A stretch of 39,310 nucleotides of DNA from an uncultured Opitutaceae bacterium (GTDB lineage Bacteria; Verrucomicrobiota; Verrucomicrobiia; Opitutales; Opitutaceae). The first letter of the stretch is position 1; each line of letters opens with the position of its first letter. Of the stretch, positions 2,508-30,672 are shown in pieces. The stretch is from NCBI GenBank assembly GCA_903952145.1, contig CAJBES010000004.1, positions 1 through 39,310 on the forward strand. The letters are read 5' to 3'. The position numbers were made by a program, and so were the translations under genes. Below the pieces are notes generated by a model. The model worked only from the letters and a program-made list of their open reading frames with translations. It was not told the DNA's origin and made no database searches.

Positions 2508-4721
2508 ATGAATTACCTCCTGGTCTCGTCCGGCCTGCTGCTGCACATCCTCCTGTGGGGTGCGGGGCTCGCACTGCTCGTGACCCCGCGGCGCTGGCGG
2601 CGGCTCTGGCCGCTGTGGATCGCACCCTGCGGAGTGGCGTTGCAATCCGCGGTGGTTTGGCTGGGCGCGCACACGACGCTGCCGGGGACCGATGCGTATG
2701 CACGCTGGACGCTGTGGCTGCCGCTGCTTCTGCTGGCCCTGGGCCTGCGCCGCCACGGCGTGCGGACCGCGGGACGTGACGGTGCGCGGTTCACGGGGCT
2801 GGCCGTGATCATGGCGGGATGCCTTGTGCTGCTGACGCTCCCACTGGCGCGCACCTCGAAGATGCTGACCACACTTTCTCTCGGCAGTTGCGACGCGGCG
2901 GATTATGCGGCGGGTGCGCGCGTGCTACAGGAATTTGCCAGCGACGATCGCAGCGGTTTCATCGGCCTGACCGAGGTGGTGCGCGTGGCGTCGGCCGACA
3001 ATTTTTTCGATTTCTGGCTGCGGCTGAACCATTTCACACCGTCGGCGCTGATGGCCTTCAACGGCTCGGTTTTTGGTCTGGTGCCGCACCAGGTCACCGG
3101 ACTGCTGACCGCGGTGTTCCTGGTGCTGACGCTGCCCCTGGTCTGGTTGCTGGCGCGGTCCACGGCGGGCTTCAGTCCGGTCGCCAGCGGCTGGCTCACG
3201 CTGCTCTACGGCATCAGCCCCATCAGCTGGTATGCGGTGTATCAGGTGGCGCCGGGGCAGATCCTCGCGGCGCAGGCGATCGCGCTGGTGACGTGGGCCG
3301 CAATCACCTGCTGGCGGGAGCCCGCCACCTGGCGGCGCGGGCTGGCGTATGCCGGTCTGCTGACGGTGGGCTTCGGCATCATCTGGGGGGCGTATAACTT
3401 CATCGTGATCGGGTGCCTGGTGCCGGCCGCAACCTGCGTCGGGGGCTGGGCGTTGCACGCAGGAAAGTTCGCCAGGCTGGTGCGCTGGATGCTCTGGCTG
3501 CTGGGGCCGCTGCTGGCCAGCGGGCTGTTCTTTGCCGGGCGCGTGGCGGGGCTCGTGGAGCGCTTCATGCTTTTCCAGCAGTATGATTTCGGCTGGAAGA
3601 TTCCGCCGCTCATGCCCGAGGGATGGCTTGGCATCGTCAACGGCGCCGACCTGCGCGCACTGGCGGGACCCGGGGCGTGGGCGCTGTCGGCCCTCGTGCT
3701 GCTGCTGCTGGCCGGGGCCTGGTTTCTGTCCATGCGGCACCGCGGTCGGTCAGCATGGCAGGTGATCGCGCTGCTCCTGCCCGTGATGGCAGGCTACGCC
3801 TACCTGCAGTGGCGCGGGCTGCGGTATGGCAGCAACGCGAGCTACGATGCCTACAAGCTCTTCTCGGTGTTTCATCCTGTGCTGCTGGTGGCGCTTTGCC
3901 ACTGGCTGGGCTGGTTGCGGAAGCGCAGCCTGCTGCTGCGCGGGCTGGCGGTGGCGATGATGGTAATTGTAACGGGACTGAACCTGCGCGGGGCTTACCG
4001 GATTGCGCAAAAAGTGGAGGCGGCCGAACTCATCGTGGACCGGCAGCTGCTGGCGGTACAGGCGGTCGAAACCCGCGATGAGGTTCATGCGGTGAACATC
4101 CACGTGGACGAATTCTGGGCGCGGCTCTGGGCCAATGCCCTGATGCTGCGCAAGCCCCAGTATTTTCCCACGCACAGCTACGAGGGCCGGCTGAACACAC
4201 CGTTGCGCGGCGAGTGGGATCTCAACGGTGACCTGCTGCAGGTGAAACTGCCGGGCACCGACACCCTGGCACTCAACCCGCGCTTCTGGCTGGTGCGGCT
4301 GGGCAGCCCGTATTTTCTGCGCGCGCGGCTGGGCGAAGGCTGGTATGCACGCGAACGCCTGCGCGGTCCGAACCCACGGCAGTGGAACTGGAGCCGGGGT
4401 GAGGCGACGATCGAACTGGAGAACCCGCACGCCCGGCCGCTGCGGGCCAAACTGCATTTCACCGCCCGCAGCCTGACCAGGCAAGAGGTGCAGATCTGGG
4501 TCGGCGACCGCCAGCAGGGTTCCATCCGCGTGGGCCCCGATTTGCGGACGGTCGCTTCGCGGGGTTTCATGGTTCCGCCGGGCCGGACCGTGGTGCGGTT
4601 GCGCCCGAGTCTGCCGCCAATGCGCGCGAGCGCCCGTGACCCGCGCTTGCTAGGCTTCGCCGCCTACGCCATCGTGGTGAACGTGCAGCCCGACGCCGGG
4701 TTGCCGGAATCCGCCCGCTGA
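2508..4721 (+). CDS. Large polytopic membrane protein with C-terminal beta-sandwich; candidate GT-C type transferase
   Basis: A protein of 737 aa. The frame is open from 2433, but MNYLLVSSG at 2508 begins the first membrane segment and is the better start. About eleven to thirteen hydrophobic segments fill residues 1-500. The first large loop is acidic (CDAADYAAGARVLQEF), as in GT-C glycosyltransferases, which use such a loop for metal or polyprenyl-phosphate sugar donors. Residues from about 630 form a soluble beta-rich domain with LENPHARPLRAKLHF and a closing DPRLLGFAAYAI, a pattern seen at the ends of several membrane sugar-transfer proteins. It lies between the methyltransferase and the epimerase. 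GT-C activity is inference: no family name can be assigned, and a flippase or polymerase role is possible. Confidence 0.7.
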   Translation: MNYLLVSSGLLLHILLWGAGLALLVTPRRWRRLWPLWIAPCGVALQSAVVWLGAHTTLPGTDAYARWTLWLPLLLLALGLRRHGVRTAGRDGARFTGLAVIMAGCLVLLTLPLARTSKMLTTLSLGSCDAADYAAGARVLQEFASDDRSGFIGLTEVVRVASADNFFDFWLRLNHFTPSALMAFNGSVFGLVPHQVTGLLTAVFLVLTLPLVWLLARSTAGFSPVASGWLTLLYGISPISWYAVYQVAPGQILAAQAIALVTWAAITCWREPATWRRGLAYAGLLTVGFGIIWGAYNFIVIGCLVPAATCVGGWALHAGKFARLVRWMLWLLGPLLASGLFFAGRVAGLVERFMLFQQYDFGWKIPPLMPEGWLGIVNGADLRALAGPGAWALSALVLLLLAGAWFLSMRHRGRSAWQVIALLLPVMAGYAYLQWRGLRYGSNASYDAYKLFSVFHPVLLVALCHWLGWLRKRSLLLRGLAVAMMVIVTGLNLRGAYRIAQKVEAAELIVDRQLLAVQAVETRDEVHAVNIHVDEFWARLWANALMLRKPQYFPTHSYEGRLNTPLRGEWDLNGDLLQVKLPGTDTLALNPRFWLVRLGSPYFLRARLGEGWYARERLRGPNPRQWNWSRGEATIELENPHARPLRAKLHFTARSLTRQEVQIWVGDRQQGSIRVGPDLRTVASRGFMVPPGRTVVRLRPSLPPMRASARDPRLLGFAAYAIVVNVQPDAGLPESAR

Positions 4722-6836: not shown

Positions 6837-7771
6837 CCCCCGCCGGCCCCGCGCTCAGCTTCGTGATCCCGCTCTACAACAGCGCGGCGACCATCGGTCC
6901 GCTGGTGAAGGAAATCGAGACGCTCGCCATCGAGGGCGGGCACGAGATCATCCTGGTGAATGACGGCAGCCGCGACGCGACGGCGGACGTCTGCCGCGAA
7001 TTGCTGCGCACCGCCCGCATCCCGATCACCTTCGTCAACCACGCGCGCAATTTCGGCGAGCACAACGCCGTGCTCACCGGCTACCGGCACGCGCGGGGCG
7101 CCCACGTAGTGAACCTCGATGACGACGGCCAGAATCCGCCCGCAGAGGCCGGACGGCTCTGGCAGCACGCCAAAGGCGGTGGGCTCGATGCGGTTTACGG
7201 CCACTATTCCCGGAAGGAGCACGCCGCGTGGCGCAACCTGGGCAGCTGGCTCACCAACCGGATGACCGACTGGGTGCTGGACAAGCCGAAGGGTTTTTAC
7301 CTGTCGAGTTTCCGCTGCGTGAGCGCGTTCGTGGCCGGGGAGGTCGCGCGGCACGAGGGGCCGTATCCGTATATCGACGGGCTCATCCTGCAGGTGACGC
7401 AGAACATCGGCGCGCTGGAAGTGCAGCATGCCGGGCGCACGGCGGGGGAGAGCGGCTATACCCTGCGCCGCTTGCTACGGCTCTGGGCCAGCACGTTCGT
7501 GAATTTCTCCGTGATGCCGCTCCGGCTGGCGACCCTGCTCGGGCTGCTGATGGCGGCGGGCGGGCTGGTGGGGCTGGCCCTGGTGTTCTACTGGTGGCGG
7601 ACCGGACAGGGCCCGGATTACGGCTGGGGCTCGCTGATGGGGGCCCTGCTGGTTTTCTCCGGCACCCAGCTCGTCATGCTCGGACTGATCGGCGAATACT
7701 TGGGGCGGATGTTCCTCACCGTGAACCGCCGGCCGCAATCGGTGGTGCGTTCCGTCGAGCGTGTGGGGTGA
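6833..7771 (+). CDS. Family 2 glycosyltransferase, polyprenyl-phosphate type with two C-terminal membrane helices
   Basis: A protein of 312 aa whose ATG overlaps the previous stop as ATGA, showing translational coupling. The GT2 GT-A fold shows FVIPLYNSAATI near 10-21, LVNDGSRDAT at 41-50 and the metal-binding NLDDDGQNPP at 94-103. Two hydrophobic helices (about residues 230-255 and 268-290) and a basic tail match the GtrB/ArnC/DPM-like subfamily, which moves a sugar from a nucleotide donor to undecaprenyl phosphate at the inner face of the membrane. Its product could be the lipid-linked donor for the GT-C-like protein upstream in the same gene set. That link is inference. Confidence 0.9.
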   Translation: MTPAGPALSFVIPLYNSAATIGPLVKEIETLAIEGGHEIILVNDGSRDATADVCRELLRTARIPITFVNHARNFGEHNAVLTGYRHARGAHVVNLDDDGQNPPAEAGRLWQHAKGGGLDAVYGHYSRKEHAAWRNLGSWLTNRMTDWVLDKPKGFYLSSFRCVSAFVAGEVARHEGPYPYIDGLILQVTQNIGALEVQHAGRTAGESGYTLRRLLRLWASTFVNFSVMPLRLATLLGLLMAAGGLVGLALVFYWWRTGQGPDYGWGSLMGALLVFSGTQLVMLGLIGEYLGRMFLTVNRRPQSVVRSVERVG

Positions 7772-7774
7772 AAT

Positions 7775-8740
7775 TCAGATCGGCCCGGCTGGGAATTGCG
7801 GACGGTGGGGCGGTGCGCCCTCGAGCAATTCATGCCAACGGCGGCGCTCCAGCTGCATGGCCGCGGCGACGCCCTCTCGCACCCGGCGCGGCGGGCTCTG
7901 TCGCAGGAGGAGGTGGGCAAGCGCCGCCCATATCCTGGGATAATCGAAGTCCTCGGACGGTTGTGAAAGTGTGCTGATCTGCTCCCGGCTCCAAGCGGGG
8001 GCGGCCAGCAGAACGATCTCGCCCGACCAGCGTTCGACCAGGCGGAAGGTGTTCTGTTCGTCGTGCAGCTTGCGGCCGGCCGACTGGCTGATGTGGTGCC
8101 GCACCACGCTCTGCAGTGCGATGCATTGGTGCAGACCGGCCGCGCGGGCCCGCAGGCAGAGGTCGATGTCCTCGCCGCCGTTGACAAAGCCCTCGTCGAA
8201 GCCGCCGAGTTTTTCCCAGGTGGCGCGGCGGAGGGCGAAGCAGGCCCCCGTCAGCGCGTCGACCGTGCGATAGGCGGGGAAGCCCAGCAGGGCGGTGGTC
8301 GGGGGCAGCTCGGTGGCATGCTCCGGCTTGCACTTGTGGTTGAAGAAAATGCCTGCGTGGTCCACTGCGCCGGTCGCGGCATTGAGCTGCACATTGCCCA
8401 CCAGCCCGGTGGCCGGGAAATGGGCAAAGGCTTCAAGCATCGGCTCGAGCCAGTGCGGCAGAAGCACGAGGTCGTTGTTGAGAAAAAACAGAAAGTCTCC
8501 GGTCGCGGCCGCCGCGCCGCGATTGCAGGCCCGGGCGAAACCGAGGTTGGCCTCGTTCAGGATCGTGCGGCAGGGCGAAGGCAGGTTTTGCAGCCAGGCC
8601 CGGGTGCCGTCGGTGCTGCCGTCGTCCACGAGGATGATCTCACCGGCGAGGTCCGGCGGCAGTGTCTGCCGCAGGCTGGCCAGCATGGCCTGCGTGAACG
8701 GCAGGCAGTTGTAGAGCGGGATGATGAACGAGACCTGCAT
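7775..8740 (-). CDS. Family 2 glycosyltransferase, rhamnosyltransferase-like
   Basis: A protein of 321 aa with VSFIIPLYNC at 3-12, ILVDDGSTDGT near 36-46, the NNDLVLLPHW metal/donor region near 90 and GGEDIDLCLRARAAG near 190, the ED acid/base region typical of WbbL/RfbF-like GT2 enzymes (COG1216). These often transfer L-rhamnose from dTDP-rhamnose, which fits its place as the last gene of the rml operon, 24 nt after rmlA. No membrane segment is seen. It ends 3 nt from the stop of the convergent GT2 gene. Rhamnose specificity is inferred from context. Confidence 0.9.
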   Translation of the reverse strand: MQVSFIIPLYNCLPFTQAMLASLRQTLPPDLAGEIILVDDGSTDGTRAWLQNLPSPCRTILNEANLGFARACNRGAAAATGDFLFFLNNDLVLLPHWLEPMLEAFAHFPATGLVGNVQLNAATGAVDHAGIFFNHKCKPEHATELPPTTALLGFPAYRTVDALTGACFALRRATWEKLGGFDEGFVNGGEDIDLCLRARAAGLHQCIALQSVVRHHISQSAGRKLHDEQNTFRLVERWSGEIVLLAAPAWSREQISTLSQPSEDFDYPRIWAALAHLLLRQSPPRRVREGVAAAMQLERRRWHELLEGAPPHRPQFPAGPI

Positions 8741-8764: not shown

Positions 8765-9688
8765 TTACAGGAGCCGGCGCAGATATGCGCCGTAGGAGGA
8801 CTTGCCGAGTTTCCTGATATTGGCCTCAAGGCCGGTGCGGTCGATCCAGCCCTGCTTGAAGGCGATTTCCTCGAGGCAGGCGATCTTGAGGCCGGTGCGT
8901 TTTTCAAGCACGTGCACAAACTGGGCGGCCTCGATGAGGGAGTCGTGGGTGCCGGTGTCGAGCCAGGCGGTGCCGCGGCCGAACACCTCGACGTGGAGCC
9001 TGCCGGCGTCGAGGTAGAGCCGGTTGAGGTCGGTGATTTCCAGTTCGCCGCGGGCGGAGGGCCGGAGGCGGCGGGCCAGGGCGACGACGTCCTGATCGTA
9101 GAAATAGAGGCCGGGAACGGCGTAGTTGGACTTGGGCTGTCTGGGCTTCTCCTCGAGGGAAAGCACGCGGCCGTCGGGCGCAAACTCGACCACGCCATAG
9201 GCGGCGGGGTTGGCCACGTGGTAACCGAAGATGGTGGCGCCGGTGCTGCGGGCGCCGGCCTCGGCGAGGGAATGCACAAATTCGGCGCCATAGAAAAGAT
9301 TGTCACCGAGCACGAGGGCGGAGGGTTCCTGCCCGGTCAGGAAACCGGTGTCCCCGGCGATGTGAAAGGCCTGCGCGAGGCCGTCGGGGCTGGGCTGAGC
9401 CGCGTAGCGGAGGGCAAGGCCGAGGTTGGCGCCGTCGCCGAGCAGCTTTTGGAACAGCGGCAGGTCGGTGGGCGTGGAGATGACGAGGATCTCGCGGATG
9501 CCGGCGAGCATGAGCACCGACAGCGGGTAATAGATCATCGGCTTGTCATAGACCGGCATGAGCTGCTTCGAGACCGCGATGGTGAGCGGGTAGAGCCGCG
9601 TTCCCGAGCCACCGGCGAGAATGATGCCCCGCCGCGAAACGGCGGGTGAGGCTGTAGGCTTGGGGCGAGAGGCTAGAGGATCAGGCAT
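8765..9688 (-). CDS. rmlA: Glucose-1-phosphate thymidylyltransferase RmlA
   Basis: A protein of 307 aa that makes dTDP-glucose from glucose 1-phosphate and dTTP, the first step to dTDP-L-rhamnose. The signature [16 protein letters not shown] and then [18 protein letters not shown] are intact, followed by [11 protein letters not shown] and [11 protein letters not shown]. RmlA normally starts within a few residues of this motif; here about 20 residues ([11 protein letters not shown] and on) come first. Those codons lie in a 7-bp tandem repeat and in the inverted repeat at 9656-9680, so the extension seems to come from the cassette insertion upstream. The start overlaps the four-helix-bundle gene by 8 nt. 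No later ATG or GTG is suitable. Confidence 0.96.
9646..9680 (-). repeat. Left inverted repeat of cassette 1 (25 nt at 9656-9680) within heptamer repeats
   Basis: Read on the minus strand, this is about five tandem 7-mers of the type GCCTCTM, beginning TCCTCTA GCCTCTC. The 25-nt part 9656-9680 pairs with 10054-10078 at 22 of 25 positions in inverted orientation. It directly abuts the stop codon of the four-helix-bundle gene (9681-9683) and at the same time encodes part of the N-terminal extension of RmlA. Confidence 0.8.
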
Positions 9689-10046
9689 GGGGAGAGCGGG
9701 CTTTGATCAGCCCGCGCAACATCCGGGCAATTTCTTCGGCTTGCTGGTCAAAAGTGGTGAAGCTGGCATCGGAGAGAAGGCCCACCTTATTGGCAAGGTC
9801 TAGCTGGGTGCGTAATTCTGCAACGGAACCCTTGGCGATATACAGGAAGCGCACGGCGTCCTTGTCTGTATCCCGTTCGTCTCCCTCTGCGATATTGCTG
9901 GGGATGCTGACGGCAGCCCGGCGCATCTGATCGGCCAGGGCAAATTCGCGGGCAAAATTTGCGCTCTTTGACAGCTGGTAAATGTCAACAGCCAAGGTCT
10001 GGCCTTTTTGCCAAACCAACAAGCTCTTGAAGCCACCACTGCTCAT
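9681..10046 (-). CDS. Four-helix-bundle protein, S23/Avd-like (copy 1)
   Basis: A protein of 121 aa. The family core is visible: [18 protein letters not shown] (helix 1), [20 protein letters not shown] (helix 2, the family's most conserved stretch), a helix with [16 protein letters not shown], and a C-terminal helix ending RMLRGLIKA. The family is named for proteins encoded in intervening sequences of 23S rRNA genes and shares its fold with Avd of diversity-generating retroelements; the molecular role of free-standing copies is poorly known. ATG at 10046 was chosen because the conserved core begins just after it; the frame is open to 10139 only as a shadow of rmlB. It sits between rmlB and rmlA, 11 nt after the first, overlapping the second, bracketed by inverted repeats. 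It has no evident role in rhamnose synthesis. Confidence 0.9.
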
Positions 10047-10053
10047 GGGCTCT

Positions 10054-10081
10054 TCCTCTAGCCTTTGGCCCCGAGCCTCTC
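10054..10081 (+). repeat. Right inverted repeat of cassette 1 (25 nt at 10054-10078), four heptamers
   Basis: On the plus strand four tandem 7-mers start TCCTCTA GCCTTTG. Positions 10054-10078 match the reverse complement of 9656-9680 at 22 of 25 bases. The copy begins 7 nt upstream of the four-helix-bundle start codon and contains the rmlB stop codon (10058-10060), so the final RmlB residues (LGAKG) are read from repeat DNA. Confidence 0.8.
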
Positions 10082-11125
10082 CCGCGCATAGCGCGTGGCC
10101 GTGATATCCGCCGCCCACGCACGGTTCCGCAGATACCAATCCACGGTCTTGGCGATGCCAGTGTCGAAGTTCTCCCTGGGCTGCCAGCCGAGCTCGCGGC
10201 GAATCTTCGCACTGTCGATGGCGTAGCGGCGGTCATGGCCGGGGCGGTCGGCGACGAAGGCGATCTGCCCGGCGTAACTCCTGCCATCGGCGCGTGGGGA
10301 TTGGCGGTCGAGCAGTGCACAAATGATGTTCACCAGATCGAGGTTCCGGCGCTCGTTGAGCCCGCCGATGTTGTAGGTCTCGCCGATGCGGCCCTGGGTG
10401 AGAACCAGCCAGATGGCGGCGGTGTGGTCCTCGACGTAGAGCCAGTCGCGGATCTGCTGGCCGTCGCCATAGACGGGCAGCGGTTTGCCCTCCAGGGCGT
10501 TGAGGATCATCAACGGGATGACTTTTTCTGGGAAAAGGTAGGGGCCGTAGTTGTTCGAGCAGTTGGTGGTGAGCGTCGGTAGATGATAGGTGTGCTGGAA
10601 GGAACGGACGAGGTGGTCGCTGGCGGCCTTGGAGGCGGCATAGGGCGAGTTGGGCGCGTAGGGGCAATCCTCGTTCCAGGGTGCGTCGCCGGGCTGGAGC
10701 GTGCCGTAGACCTCGTCGGTGGAGACGTGGAGAAAGCGAAAGGCGCTTTGCTTCGCTGCGGGCAGCCCGGCCCAGTAAAGCCGGGCGGCATTGAGCAACC
10801 GGAGCGTGCCGACCACGTTGGTCTGGATGAACGGCTCGGGCGAATCGATCGAACGATCCACATGCGTCTCGGCGGCGAAATTGACGATGGCGTCGATGGC
10901 ATGGGCGGCCAGCAGCCGGGAAACGAGGGCGGTGTCGCCAATGTCACCCCGGGCGAAGACATAGCGCGGGTCGCCGGCAAGATCGGCGAGATTGGCCGGA
11001 TTGCCGGCATAGGTCAGCGCATCGAGGTTGACGAGTTGGCCGATGGGGGAACCGGCCTCGGTGAGGCGTTGGCGGATGAAATTGCTGCCGATGAAGCCGC
11101 AGCCGCCGGTGACCAATATGTTCAT
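10058..11125 (-). CDS. rmlB: dTDP-glucose 4,6-dehydratase RmlB
   Basis: A protein of 355 aa that converts dTDP-glucose to dTDP-4-keto-6-deoxyglucose with tightly bound NAD. The Rossmann motif [12 protein letters not shown] is at residues 6-17; the catalytic STDEVYG and YAASKAASD (YxxxK) follow, then the RmlB pattern [18 protein letters not shown]. Length and order match the family. It lies between two four-helix-bundle genes. The upstream junction holds 22-bp tandem repeats that run up to the start codon, and the last codons fall in an inverted repeat. No Shine-Dalgarno site is visible because the repeat fills the space. Confidence 0.97.
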
Positions 11126-11191
11126 GTTACAGGTGCCAGGTTGGAAAGTTACAGGTGGTAAGGTCGAAAGCTACAGGTTGGAGGCAGACTT
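11126..11191 (+). repeat. Three 22-bp tandem repeats between rmlB and four-helix-bundle gene 2
   Basis: The core G[T/C]TACAGGT occurs at 11126, 11148 and 11170, exactly 22 nt apart. Units 1 and 2 both end GAAA; unit 3 diverges in its second half. Each unit is roughly three 7-mers plus one base. The array starts at the base next to the rmlB start codon. A part of unit 1 (11131-11147) resembles the reverse complement of 11581-11597 at 13 of 17 bases. Confidence 0.8.
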
Positions 11192-11202
11192 TGGGCCGGC
11201 GG

Positions 11203-11574
11203 TTATTTGTCCAGTCCCGTCAGGTAGTCGATCAGGCGTCGGATCTTTCCGCTGCACGCTTCTGGGGCGGAGCGTAGCCGGGCAAAGTCCGTCTCCGAGA
11301 TGTGGCCGGCGTCGAGTGCGACGTAGAGTTGGCTGCGAACCTCGCCGCACGAGCCTTTGGCGCGACCGAGCAGATCGATGAAGAGGCTTCGCGTGCGCGA
11401 CTCATAACCCTCGGCGATGTTGGACATGATGGAGTTCGCCGCGCGTCTGATCTGGTCGCGCAACGCGAAGTCCTTCGCGAAACCTCCGGTGCGCGTCTGA
11501 GCGTAGACATCGCCGGTGAGCTGACGCGCGATCTGCCAGGCCTCGATGTCTTCGAATCTCTTGAAACTGGCCAT
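11203..11574 (-). CDS. Four-helix-bundle protein, S23/Avd-like (copy 2)
   Basis: A protein of 123 aa, homologous to the copy at 9681-10046 but clearly diverged. The core is FEDIEAWQIARQLTGDVY, FALRDQIRRAANSIMSNIAE, FIDLLGRAKGSCGEVRSQLY and a C-terminal helix ending RRLIDYLTGLDK. ATG at 11574 places the start just before the conserved helix 1; an in-frame ATG at 11616 would add residues encoded by repeats. It lies between rmlD (48 nt) and rmlB (77 nt) in the same direction, so it is likely co-transcribed. Divergence between the two copies argues for separate insertions rather than a recent local duplication. Function in the operon is unknown. Confidence 0.9.
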   Translation of the reverse strand: MASFKRFEDIEAWQIARQLTGDVYAQTRTGGFAKDFALRDQIRRAANSIMSNIAEGYESRTRSLFIDLLGRAKGSCGEVRSQLYVALDAGHISETDFARLRSAPEACSGKIRRLIDYLTGLDK

Positions 11575-11581
11575 AGGCAAT

Positions 11582-11609
11582 TTTGAACCTGGAACTTGAA
11601 ACTTGAAAA
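11582..11609 (+). repeat. Four 7-bp tandem repeats upstream of four-helix-bundle gene 2
   Basis: Four heptamers in perfect register, the last two being TTGAAAC TTGAAAA on the plus strand (consensus TTGRAAC). The array starts 7 nt upstream of the start codon at 11574, the same distance as in cassette 1. It fills most of the space to the rmlD stop. Confidence 0.75.
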
Positions 11610-11622
11610 CTCGCAACTGGCC

Positions 11623-12501
11623 TTACTTCTCCAGAACTTGCCGGAGGCTGTCGTGCCAGTCGGGGAGACGGAGGCCGCAGGCGCGTTCAAGCTTGGCGCA
11701 GGACATCACCGAGTAGGCGGGGCGCCTGGTCGGCGTCGGAAACTCGGCGGAGGTGATGGCCTCGACCGTGTGGCACTTTTTCTCCGCGGGCGGCATCAGG
11801 TTGACGATGGCCGAGGCGAAGCCGTGCCAACTCGTCGAGCCCGAGGCGCAGAGATGGTAGATGCCGGAGAGCGCACGGGCGTCGGCCGGCGAGCAGACCT
11901 GACGGAGGGCGTGGGCGGTGGTCTCGGCGATCATGCGCGACCATGTCGGGCTGCCGACCTGGTCGGCCACGACGCGGAGCTGCTCGCGTTCGCGGGCCAG
12001 CCGCATCATCGTGAGCATGAAGTTGGAGCCGCGCGCGCCGTAGACCCAGCAGAGACGGAAGATGAGGTGCGCGCCGCCGGCCGCCTGGATGGCGCGGTCG
12101 CCGGCGAGCTTGGTGCGGGCGTAGGCGCCCTGCGGATTGGGCGGGTCGTCCTCGACGTAGGGTGTGGCCTTGGTGCCCTCGTAGACGTAGTCGGTCGAGT
12201 AATGGACGAGCAGCGCGCCGCGCCTGGCCGTCTCCTCGGCCATGATGCCGGGGGCTTCGGCGTTGATTTTTGTGGCCAGGGCGGTCTCGGTCTCGGCCTT
12301 GTCGACCGCAGTGTAGGCGGCGGCGTTGATGACGATGTCGGGTGCGGTGTCGGCGATCCAACGACGGATCGAGTCGGGGGCGGTGAAGTCGACCTCCGGA
12401 TAGTCCACGCAGACGAGGCGGCTCATCGGCGCGAGGGTGCGGCGGAGTTCCCAGCCGACCTGGCCGACCTTGCCAAAGAGGAGGATTTTCGGAGGAGTCA
12501 T
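11623..12501 (-). CDS. rmlD: dTDP-4-dehydrorhamnose reductase RmlD
   Basis: A protein of 292 aa that catalyses the final NAD(P)H-dependent reduction giving dTDP-L-rhamnose. It shows the nucleotide motif GKVGQVGWEL at residues 10-19, NAAAYTAVDKAE at 59-70 (an RmlD hallmark), STDYVYEG at 102-109 and Y127-ART-K131 as the catalytic YxxxK pair. ATG at 12501 was chosen over an upstream in-frame start at 12621 because the Rossmann strand begins at once and the extension overlaps rmlC. It is 32 nt from rmlC. Confidence 0.96.
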   Translation of the reverse strand: MTPPKILLFGKVGQVGWELRRTLAPMSRLVCVDYPEVDFTAPDSIRRWIADTAPDIVINAAAYTAVDKAETETALATKINAEAPGIMAEETARRGALLVHYSTDYVYEGTKATPYVEDDPPNPQGAYARTKLAGDRAIQAAGGAHLIFRLCWVYGARGSNFMLTMMRLAREREQLRVVADQVGSPTWSRMIAETTAHALRQVCSPADARALSGIYHLCASGSTSWHGFASAIVNLMPPAEKKCHTVEAITSAEFPTPTRRPAYSVMSCAKLERACGLRLPDWHDSLRQVLEK

Positions 12502-21977: not shown

Positions 21978-23264
21978 ATGCTCTGGCTCTACCGACTGCT
22001 TTTCCTGCCCGCACTGGTGTTGGGCGCGCCCTACTACCTCTGGCGCATGCGGCGGCGCGGCGGCTACCGGAAAAGTTTTGCCCAGCGCCTGGGGTGGGTG
22101 CCCGGCCTGCCGCCCAAGGTTCCCGGTCGGCGCCGCATCTGGCTGCAGGCGGTGAGCGTGGGCGAGATCCTCGCCATCGGGCCGATGCTCGAGGCCTGGC
22201 GGCGCCAGGGTGGGGTGGAGGTTTACCTGACCAGCACCACGAGCACCGGTTACCGGCTCGCGCACGACCGCTACGGCCCGTTGGTCGCGGGCATCGGCTA
22301 CTTTCCGCTAGACTGGTGGCCCATCAGCCGGCGTGCATGGCGGCGCGTGCAGCCCGACCTCGTGATTTTGACCGAGGGTGAACGCTGGCCGGAGCACATC
22401 CACCAGGCACGGTTACGCCGGGTGCCGGTGCTGTGCGTCAACGCCCGGCTCTCCGACCGCACTTACCGCCGGATGCGCCGCGTGCGCTGGGTGGTCCCGC
22501 CGTTGCTGGCGGGCGTGACGCGCCTGCTGGCGTGCTCGGCGCACGATGCGGAGTGGTTTCGTGCACTGGGTTTCCCGGCGGAGCGCATCCAGACGACGGG
22601 CAACATCAAACTCGACGTGGCCATCCCGCGGTTGGGCGCGGACGAACGCGCGCAATTGCGGCGTGAACTCGGGCTGCCGGACGCCGGGCTTGTGCTGATG
22701 GGCTCCTCCACATGGCCGGGCGAGGAGGAGGCACTGATCGGGGCATTGCGGCTGACCCGCAGCCGGGGCCTGGCCTGTGCATTGATCATTGTCCCGCGTC
22801 ACGCCGAGCGGCGCGGGCAGATCGAGGCGTTGTTGCGCGCAGGGGAGTTCACCTATCATCTCCGTTCCCGCGGCGTCGCCACCGGGACGGTGGACATCGC
22901 GGTGGGTGATACGACCGGCGAAATGCGGCACTTCCTGCAACTGGCCGACGTGGTCTTCGTGGGGAAGAGCCTCCCGCCGCACACCGAAGGCCAGACCCCG
23001 GTGGAGTCGGCGGTGCTGGGCCGGCCGCTGCTGTTCGGACCGGGCATGGCAAATTTCCGGGTGATTGCAAAAGAGCTGCTGGCCCAGGGTGCGGCGGTGC
23101 GGGTCGCGGATGCGGAGGCGCTGGCGACAACAGCGGCGGACCTGTTGGGCGACGGGTCCCGGCGCGAGACACTGGCAGCCGCGGCGCAGGCCTGGCACCG
23201 GGCCAATGCGGGCGCCGTTGAGCGCACGCTAGCAGTGGTGCGCGAAGTGCTCGGTGAGGGATGA
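21978..23264 (+). CDS. waaA: 3-deoxy-D-manno-octulosonic acid (Kdo) transferase
   Basis: A protein of 428 aa that adds Kdo from CMP-Kdo to lipid IVA at the inner membrane, showing that the organism makes lipopolysaccharide. An N-terminal membrane anchor (LLFLPALVLGAPYYLW) precedes the GT-B fold. WLQAVSVGEILA contains the catalytic base, E63 here. Later motifs are TSTTSTGY, GNIKLD, GSSTWPGEEEAL, IVPRHAERR and the C-terminal VGKSLPPHTEGQTPVE, all of the GT30 family. How many Kdo units it adds cannot be told. The end of the gene runs into a purine-rich repeat. Confidence 0.95.
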   Translation: MLWLYRLLFLPALVLGAPYYLWRMRRRGGYRKSFAQRLGWVPGLPPKVPGRRRIWLQAVSVGEILAIGPMLEAWRRQGGVEVYLTSTTSTGYRLAHDRYGPLVAGIGYFPLDWWPISRRAWRRVQPDLVILTEGERWPEHIHQARLRRVPVLCVNARLSDRTYRRMRRVRWVVPPLLAGVTRLLACSAHDAEWFRALGFPAERIQTTGNIKLDVAIPRLGADERAQLRRELGLPDAGLVLMGSSTWPGEEEALIGALRLTRSRGLACALIIVPRHAERRGQIEALLRAGEFTYHLRSRGVATGTVDIAVGDTTGEMRHFLQLADVVFVGKSLPPHTEGQTPVESAVLGRPLLFGPGMANFRVIAKELLAQGAAVRVADAEALATTAADLLGDGSRRETLAAAAQAWHRANAGAVERTLAVVREVLGEG

Positions 23265-23300
23265 GGGAGTCGGGGAGTGAGGGAGGGAATAAGGGGGAGG
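23255..23300 (+). repeat. Purine-rich 7- to 8-bp tandem repeats at the waaA 3' end
   Basis: GGGA recurs at 23258, 23265, 23273 and 23281 with spacing 7, 8 and 8, then degenerates. The array overlaps the waaA stop codon. Confidence 0.5.
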
Positions 23301-28445: not shown

Positions 28446-28464
28446 GCCAAGCCAGCCAACCTGA

Positions 28465-28541
28465 CCGCGGATGACGCGGATGATCGCGGAGAAACCAACC
28501 CTCATCCGCGCCCGTCCATGTCATCCGCGGTTGTTTTTTAT
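28465..28541 (+). terminator. Long two-part hairpin with T-run in the gap-pgk spacer
   Basis: CCGCGGATGAC (28465-28475) pairs with GTCATCCGCGG (28520-28530), and inside it GCGGATGA (28476-28483) pairs with TCATCCGC (28502-28509); one side has a 10-nt bulge. TTGTTTTTTATA follows at once. The pgk ATG is only 12 nt further, so the hairpin may partly terminate transcription or stabilise the gap mRNA end. Confidence 0.6.
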
Positions 28542-29816: not shown

Positions 29817-29848
29817 CGGCCTCCGGGCATGGGTCGGATTAAATGTTG

Positions 29849-29897
29849 CCTGTGACCCATTACCCATAACCTATCACCCTTCACCCTTAACCTACTT
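29849..29897 (+). repeat. Seven 7-bp tandem repeats directly upstream of tpiA
   Basis: Seven heptamers in perfect register without a slipped base, consensus CCYWTHA (for example CCCATTA CCCATAA); six of the seven end in A. They fill the space from 33 nt after the pgk stop to 4 nt before the tpiA start, so the ribosome site lies within or next to the array. Confidence 0.85.
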
Positions 29898-29901
29898 TCC
29901 C

Positions 29902-30672
29902 ATGATCCTCCGCAAAAAACTCATCGCCGGTAACTGGAAAATGAACAAGACGCCCACTGACGGTGTGGCGCTGGTTGCCGAACTCGTCACCGCCATTGGC
30001 AAACAGACCGACGTCGACGTCCTGGTCTGCCCGCCGTTTACGGGACTCGAATCCGCCGGCAAGGCGCTGGAGGGATCCACGCTCAAACTCGGCGCCCAGA
30101 ACATGCACTTCGAGGCCAACGGAGCCTTCACCGGCGAGGTTTCCGCGCCCATGTTGCGGGCGCTGTTCGCCACGCATGTCATCCTCGGCCACAGTGAGCG
30201 CCGCGCGCTCTTCGGCGAGCAGGATGCCTTCATCAACAAAAAGGTGCTCGCGGCGCTGAAGAACCAGCTGCGCCCGATCCTGTGCGTGGGCGAGACCCTG
30301 GCCGAACGCGAGGGCGGCATCGCGCTCAAGGTCGTGCAGACCCAGCTGGAGGCCGGGCTGGAAGGCGTGGGCAAGGATCAGGCATCGACCGTCATCGTCG
30401 CCTACGAACCAGTCTGGGCCATTGGCACCGGCAAGGTCGCGACCACCGACCAGGCCCAGGAGGTGCACGCCTTCATCCGCGGCCTGCTGGTCAAACTCTA
30501 CGGTGACTCCATCGCACAGAAGGTCCGCATCCTCTACGGCGGCTCGATGAAGCCGGCCAACGCCCCCGAACTGCTCAGCCAGAAGGACATTGACGGCGGC
30601 CTCATCGGTGGTGCCGCCCTCGAGGCGCGCAGCTTTGTCGACCTCGTCAAAGCGGCGGCGGCGGTGAAGTAA
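29902..30672 (+). CDS. tpiA: Triosephosphate isomerase
   Basis: A protein of 256 aa interconverting dihydroxyacetone phosphate and glyceraldehyde 3-phosphate. MILRKKLIAGNWKMNK holds catalytic N11 and K13; H97 is in ILGHSERR and the general base E169 in VAYEPVWAIGTGK. YGGSMKPANA and GGLIGGAALEA complete the phosphate-binding loops. A much longer open frame upstream overlaps pgk and is not real. The start codon immediately follows a heptamer repeat rather than a purine-rich ribosome site. Confidence 0.98.
   Translation: MILRKKLIAGNWKMNKTPTDGVALVAELVTAIGKQTDVDVLVCPPFTGLESAGKALEGSTLKLGAQNMHFEANGAFTGEVSAPMLRALFATHVILGHSERRALFGEQDAFINKKVLAALKNQLRPILCVGETLAEREGGIALKVVQTQLEAGLEGVGKDQASTVIVAYEPVWAIGTGKVATTDQAQEVHAFIRGLLVKLYGDSIAQKVRILYGGSMKPANAPELLSQKDIDGGLIGGAALEARSFVDLVKAAAAVK

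Follow-up and report, generated by a model that had tools for sequence, protein, structure and literature searches.

The closest described counterparts of the locus studied here are the intervening sequences (IVSs) of 23S rRNA. The IVS of Coxiella burnetii, which RNase III cuts, is closed by a 28-bp terminal stem and carries an S23p gene in its loop, with tandem heptamers ahead of the start codon; what rRNA IVSs do and where they come from has been called unclear (PMC4990558). IVP open reading frames (ORFs) also occur within rRNA insertions of bacteria of the candidate phyla radiation (CPR) (PMC11270868). Here we analyse a stretch of 39,310 nucleotides from an uncultured Opitutaceae bacterium (assembly GCA_903952145.1, contig CAJBES010000004.1), hereafter the window, in which two genes of the S23p/IVP family lie in one rml operon: copy 1 between rmlB and rmlA, and copy 2, our main subject, between rmlD and rmlB. 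We propose, with a probability of about 0.62, that copy 2 is an intercistronic IVS-like element, made of an arm, an S23p/IVP ORF and a second arm, inserted in sense between the rmlD stop and the rmlB start. The element type to which it belongs is most likely a mobile intercistronic stem-loop, of which the rRNA IVSs would be a special case.

The components of copy 2 and its two host genes are the following:

11203–11574, minus strand: intact ORF of copy 2, 123 aa, S23p/IVP four-helix-bundle protein
11575–11618, minus strand: 5′ arm (in gene direction), units TTTCAAG/TTTCAAG/TTCCAGG, between the rmlD stop and the ORF; identity at lag 7 of 0.68
11126–11191, minus strand: 3′ arm, a tandem array with a 22-bp period (3 × 7 + 1), complementary to the 5′ arm in inverted orientation and reaching the rmlB start codon
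11126–11622, minus strand: whole element (arm-ORF-arm), filling the rmlD-rmlB junction exactly, as judged from the alternative states of this junction in relatives
11623–12501, minus strand: rmlD, upstream host gene (PF04321, 334 bits), stop at 11623
10058–11125, minus strand: rmlB, downstream host gene (PF16363, 304 bits), start at 11125

The protein belongs to the S23p/IVP family, with 97.2 bits against PF05635 (cut-off 33.8), the sole Pfam match in copy 2, and 91.1 bits against TIGR02436 (cut-off 24); PDB 2gsc is a solved relative (phmmer, E 2.3e-9), and a homopentameric structure is cited for the Xanthomonas S23p (PMC4990558). The initial annotation had placed copy 2 between rmlD and rmlB with 22-bp repeats on one side and 7-bp repeats on the other, and the profile matches and Tandem Repeats Finder (TRF), which called a 22-bp array at 11126–11178 and a 7-bp array at 11593–11608, agree with this. 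The array is indeed close to the start codon, since the 7-bp repeats run from 11582 and the ATG lies at 11574; TTTTCAAGTTTCAAGTTCCAGGTTCAAAA precedes the ORF in gene direction. Identity at lag 22 is 0.79 in the 3′ arm, and its 22-mer reads CACCTGT/AACTTTC/CAACCTG plus one base. As three 7-mers and one base make up this repeat, both borders of copy 2 belong to one system of units of about 7 nt. This shared 7-nt system, the stem that it forms around the ORF, and the intercistronic, widespread and polymorphic character of the whole element had been missed.

Copy 2 thus resembles the 23S rRNA IVSs of C. burnetii and Leptospira in its protein family, in its complementary terminal arms and in the ORF held in the loop, and the Coxiella IVS in addition by the heptamer repeats beside the S23p start codon (PMC4990558). 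Unlike these IVSs, it does not sit in a 23S rRNA helix but between protein-coding cistrons, rmlD and rmlB, and both of its arms are 7-nt arrays with element-specific words.

The complementarity of the termini needed closer scrutiny. The initial annotation had pointed to an inverted match of 13 of 17 positions between the flanks (11131–11147 against 11581–11597). This match exists, but as the sole argument for this pair it is weak: of 1000 dinucleotide shuffles, 25 reach at least 13 of 17, as do 52 of 1043 pairs of the same geometry from other parts of the window. At 14 of 17, the best register of the flanks goes beyond chance (4 of 1000 shuffles, 7 of 1043 window pairs; p ~0.004), and in gapped alignment the own partner arm of copy 2 ranks second of 108 (p = 0.005). 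Complementary termini therefore surround the ORF as they do in IVSs (p ~0.004 to 0.005), with an imperfect stem. A stand-alone small gene lying by accident beside unrelated slippage-prone repeats would be compatible with the 13/17 match, whose margin over chance is so narrow. However, such a coincidence is highly improbable against the family-wide statistics over independent loci and phyla, which rule it out at the level of the family.

An IVP gene is present in 38 of 57 related genomes, with up to 15 matches per genome. For 108 full-length relatives we calculated the local inverted score of the two flanks of each copy, and obtained a mean of 33.5 for own flanks versus 16.7 for flanks taken from different copies. 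In 53 cases the own partner arm scored best among all 108, and 69 of the 108 copies had p at or below 0.005. Arm identity in these copies was 0.60, 0.58 and 0.53 at lags 7, 14 and 21, versus 0.25, 0.26 and 0.32 outside the arms. The repeated word is element-specific (GTAGCGA, GAGTTGA, GAGTCAG, AGCCAGA or GGTTCAA, for instance), yet both sides of each element match; the units have in common a weak form, NNNNNAG (A 69%, G 85%; 2.13 bits, with null values of at most 1.95), and purines prevail in the 5′ arm, which is poor in C. At 17 insertion sites common to different genera, own arms pair with each other better than with the 3′ arm of the orthologue (permutation p = 5e-5), and the 25-bp consensus stem of the livH site has compensated double changes at 8 pairs among 7 sequences.

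The same holds far beyond the group. We sampled 80 relatives from named genomes, of which 76 elements were testable, in about 20 phyla; Bacteroidota, Pseudomonadota, Clostridia, CPR bacteria, Acidobacteriota, Spirochaetes, Omnitrophica, Cloacimonadota and an archaeal bin were among the sources. In these 76 elements the own-pair score was 36 versus 16, the own partner was the best in 47, and identity at lag 7 was 0.64. Cyanobacterial plasmids carry the same design (GGGAACA arrays). Pairing of the flanks, marginal in the register first reported for copy 2, is hence a strong general property of the family, in own-pair scores, in co-variation and in other phyla. A divergent IVP clade (L098, L107, L111) has reversed, pyrimidine-rich 5′ arms (GTTCTCGTTCTC), and ORF-less hairpins with such pyrimidine-first arms (GTTCTCGTTCTC) are seen as well in the set formed by these three loci with L177 and L191.

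The position of the elements is equally constrained. Sense placement between co-directional genes was found in 86 of the 96 callable elements, and only 3 were antisense to both neighbours. The arms begin a median of 5 nt past the upstream stop and end a median of 8 nt ahead of the next start, in the 63 and 57 armed elements (of 76), respectively, whose flanking ORF was assignable. Sense orientation, together with the purine-rich 5′ arm, points to an RNA directionality, and we infer from the sequences that pairing takes place at the RNA level. Once the operon is transcribed, the 5′ arm, rich in purines, would pair with the pyrimidine-rich 3′ arm and hold the ORF in the loop, in the manner of a 23S rRNA IVS. 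Because the element sits between cistrons, its insertion, and any cut by RNase III in the stem, would be cheap for the host. The IVP, a pentamer in the solved relative, probably binds its own arms and aids the spread of the arm-ORF-arm unit, which would move as a block into new gene junctions, and RNase III may process the stem. On the simplest reading there would be a single type of element, a transcribed stem-loop with an ORF in its loop, tolerated either between cistrons or in rRNA loops.

Several junctions exist in both filled and empty states. In relatives, the rmlD-rmlB junction is empty in G020 (L119), holds only a one-sided 7-nt array in G007 (L118), and in G013 (L117) contains a GxxExxY gene (TIGR04256, PF13366 PDDEXK_3) between arms of CGCGAAGNN units. 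The gyrB-gyrA and gatA-gatB junctions, seen in about 30 genomes each, carry IVP cassettes, GxxExxY cassettes or ORF-less hairpins with 7-nt arms, or are empty. Empty junctions, one example being TGATGAAC with gatA and gatB overlapping, also occur in the genome of the window itself.

These states also bear on the idea that the host uses the 7-nt arrays as ordinary stabilisers or attenuators between cistrons, with the IVPs as domesticated hairpin-binding regulators that tune operon expression. Elements persist for long at junctions shared by different genera (livH, thrC, gyrA and rmlA sites), the livH-site stem co-varies, and the purine-rich 5′ arm, near the IVP start, resembles a ribosome-binding site, all of which a regulatory role would explain. 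We nevertheless consider it quite improbable: the same junctions are empty in close relatives, even with overlapping genes at the gat site, ORFs with stop codons or truncations exist (G031, G019, G032; L006, 526–651), and at the same sites the IVP is replaced by unrelated GxxExxY cassettes.

The GxxExxY cassettes are nuclease-like, unrelated to the IVP, and occupy IVP insertion sites in other genera. Their inverted arms have a 9-nt period (0.43 at lag 9). Such PDDEXK_3 genes with 9-nt arms were seen in L117 (2409–2808) and in L146–L175, and literature on them is nearly absent. The window itself contains an ORF-less hairpin with 9-nt arms (CGCGGATGA units), of the type flanking GxxExxY genes, at the gapA-pgk junction (28462–28530), a 7-nt array of ACCCATN units at the pgk-tpiA junction (29826–29903), which has no ORF but a short partner upstream, and a one-sided array of GAGGGAN units just beyond a gene end (23254–23285). 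In L006 (G000:C132), three further IVP copies (7975–8328, 9080–9466 and the fragment 526–651) sit among sensor-kinase and response-regulator-like genes, together with solo 7-nt arrays at 4618–4675 and 7140–7172.

Hairpins with and without an ORF recall the REPIN/RAYT systems, in which a protein gene is flanked by palindromic extragenic repeats and ORF-less hairpins also occur. By analogy with REP sequences and RAYT, the arms could be DNA hairpins, single-stranded or cruciform, and an enzyme of the host or acting in trans could move hairpins with and without an ORF, the IVP being an accessory DNA-binding protein. Indeed, hairpins that lack an ORF but keep the 7-nt layout often occupy these junctions, and 7-nt arrays are also found elsewhere (in genomes with an IVP, 1.2 to 8 per 100 kb), as would be expected of non-autonomous copies. 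One locus, L234, bears the same arm word as the IVP cassettes of the gat site. We regard this DNA-level mechanism as unlikely all the same. Unlike REPIN/RAYT, the element lacks a Y1/HUH transposase and encodes no other transposase; arm words differ between elements, even within one genome; the sense bias is strong (86/96), and the 5′ arm is purine-rich across phyla. ORF-less 7-nt hairpins and arrays are frequent, with words that vary among elements.

Homology between copies at different sites ends at the arms. Two loci of one genome, L008 and L036, have 93% protein identity with homology confined from arm to arm. IVP copies at gyrB-gyrA, gatA-gatB and pheT form one protein clade with a common word, GTAGCGA. 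Across sites, proteins more than 55% identical have similar arm words (0.49 versus ~0.2), and protein and arm similarity are correlated overall (r = 0.34, p = 5e-4). Active movement of the unit is suggested by these near-identical copies and by the site polymorphism.

The relation between the two copies of the window agrees with independent arrivals. Copy 1 has the same organisation:

9681–10046, minus strand: copy 1 ORF, 121 aa, same family (PF05635, 127 bits), between rmlB and rmlA
9649–9680, minus strand: copy 1 3′ arm, CCTCTAGCCTCTCGCCCCAAGCC...; arm score 35, rank 0 of 108, p 0.005
10047–10078, minus strand: copy 1 5′ arm, CTCGGGGCCAAAGGCTAGAGG..., overlapping the last rmlB codons

The two proteins diverge widely, as had been noted, with 38% identity. 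Copy 1 has as its sister L009, a copy at the same rmlB-rmlA site in another genus (genome G031; 79% identity, SH-aLRT 97), and this site is also occupied in L028, L033, L057, L064 and L053. Copy 2 falls in a separate clade (8 rows, support 96) with L043, L072 and hisF-site copies. The tree, with 125 columns and many deeper forks unresolved, speaks to sisterhood only. As the copies are not sisters among their homologues, the two separate insertions put forward initially are better supported than a tandem duplication, which we rejected given this phylogeny. The rmlA start overlaps the stop of the copy 1 IVP (ATGCCTGA). For rmlA (window 9649–9688) and for gatB (L206), the 3′ arm stays open in the frame of the gene that follows and could be read as an extra N-terminal segment.

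Several observations weigh against the interpretation of copy 2 as a mobile IVS-like element. Its stem is degraded, with interrupted pairing, and the RNA fold of the element gives a modest z of -2.75. About one third of the elements have no significant arms at the cut-off used, and template switching, rather than selection on RNA, could keep the arms matched. Many sites are common across genera, which implies long residence, so that movement must be rare. No target-site duplication was established, and no recombinase or reverse transcriptase was found within the element. Finally, G008 has no detectable IVP gene, yet contains 7-nt arrays at 3.1 per 100 kb, so the arrays do not strictly depend on a resident IVP; strict dependence is likewise not upheld by the array counts, 6 per 373 kb in four IVP-free genomes versus 16 per 420 kb in three IVP-bearing ones. 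Carriage by phages received no match in phage records and none in IMG/VR, and loose motif matching for an rRNA location of the fetched relatives gave scattered noise and no rRNA locus.

Other known systems share only part of this organisation. The Avd proteins of diversity-generating retroelements are a related four-helix-bundle family. Membership in it is ruled out on score, copy 1 reaching 25.5 bits against bAvd (cut-off 40) and 28.4 against DivGenRetAVD (cut-off 80), and copy 2 having no match; neither a reverse transcriptase nor a variable/template repeat pair was seen beside the element. The TAACTGA repeats of Beggiatoaceae are also intergenic heptamer arrays, but they consist of a single genome-wide word in direct repeats upstream of genes, and S23 is unmentioned in their description (PMC4679880). 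Cyanobacterial heptanucleotide repeats (STRR, Nostoc P6b) likewise have 7-nt units pairing across a stem in variable copy number. The P6b stem of the Nostoc trnL intron contains the motifs TDNGATT and NNTGAGT (PMC4476775); unlike our element, it lies inside an intron and has no S23p ORF. The arm word TTTTCGATT of the IVP elements L113 and L115 fits the Class I motif TDNGATT, which hints at a common origin.

Taken together, the data may reflect a cross-phylum selfish class of intercistronic elements, with S23p/IVP (7-nt arms) or GxxExxY PDDEXK-like (9-nt arms) cargo alternating at operon junctions and leaving ORF-less hairpins. It would be ancestral to the rRNA IVSs and possibly to the cyanobacterial heptamer repeats. 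Its movement would rely on a new mechanism, based on RNA or on hairpins, with the arm repeats either produced by the protein or matched to it. This wider proposal, taken with all its parts, is tentative, and we would put it at somewhat less than even odds. Neither the open-access literature nor the curated family databases yielded a description of S23p or GxxExxY cassettes with arms in intergenic positions, and the novelty is to this extent provisional.

That one protein family comes with 7-nt arms and another with 9-nt arms suggests a specific link between protein and repeat that has so far gone undescribed. Should S23p cassettes prove to be a heptamer-armed intercistronic element of general occurrence, the rRNA IVSs would be a special case of it, and a testable source for them would be at hand. 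Many genes of obscure role annotated as ‘four helix bundle protein’ or ‘GxxExxY’ would then be accounted for, and the same elements would offer a possible cause of the heptanucleotide repeats found in many bacteria.
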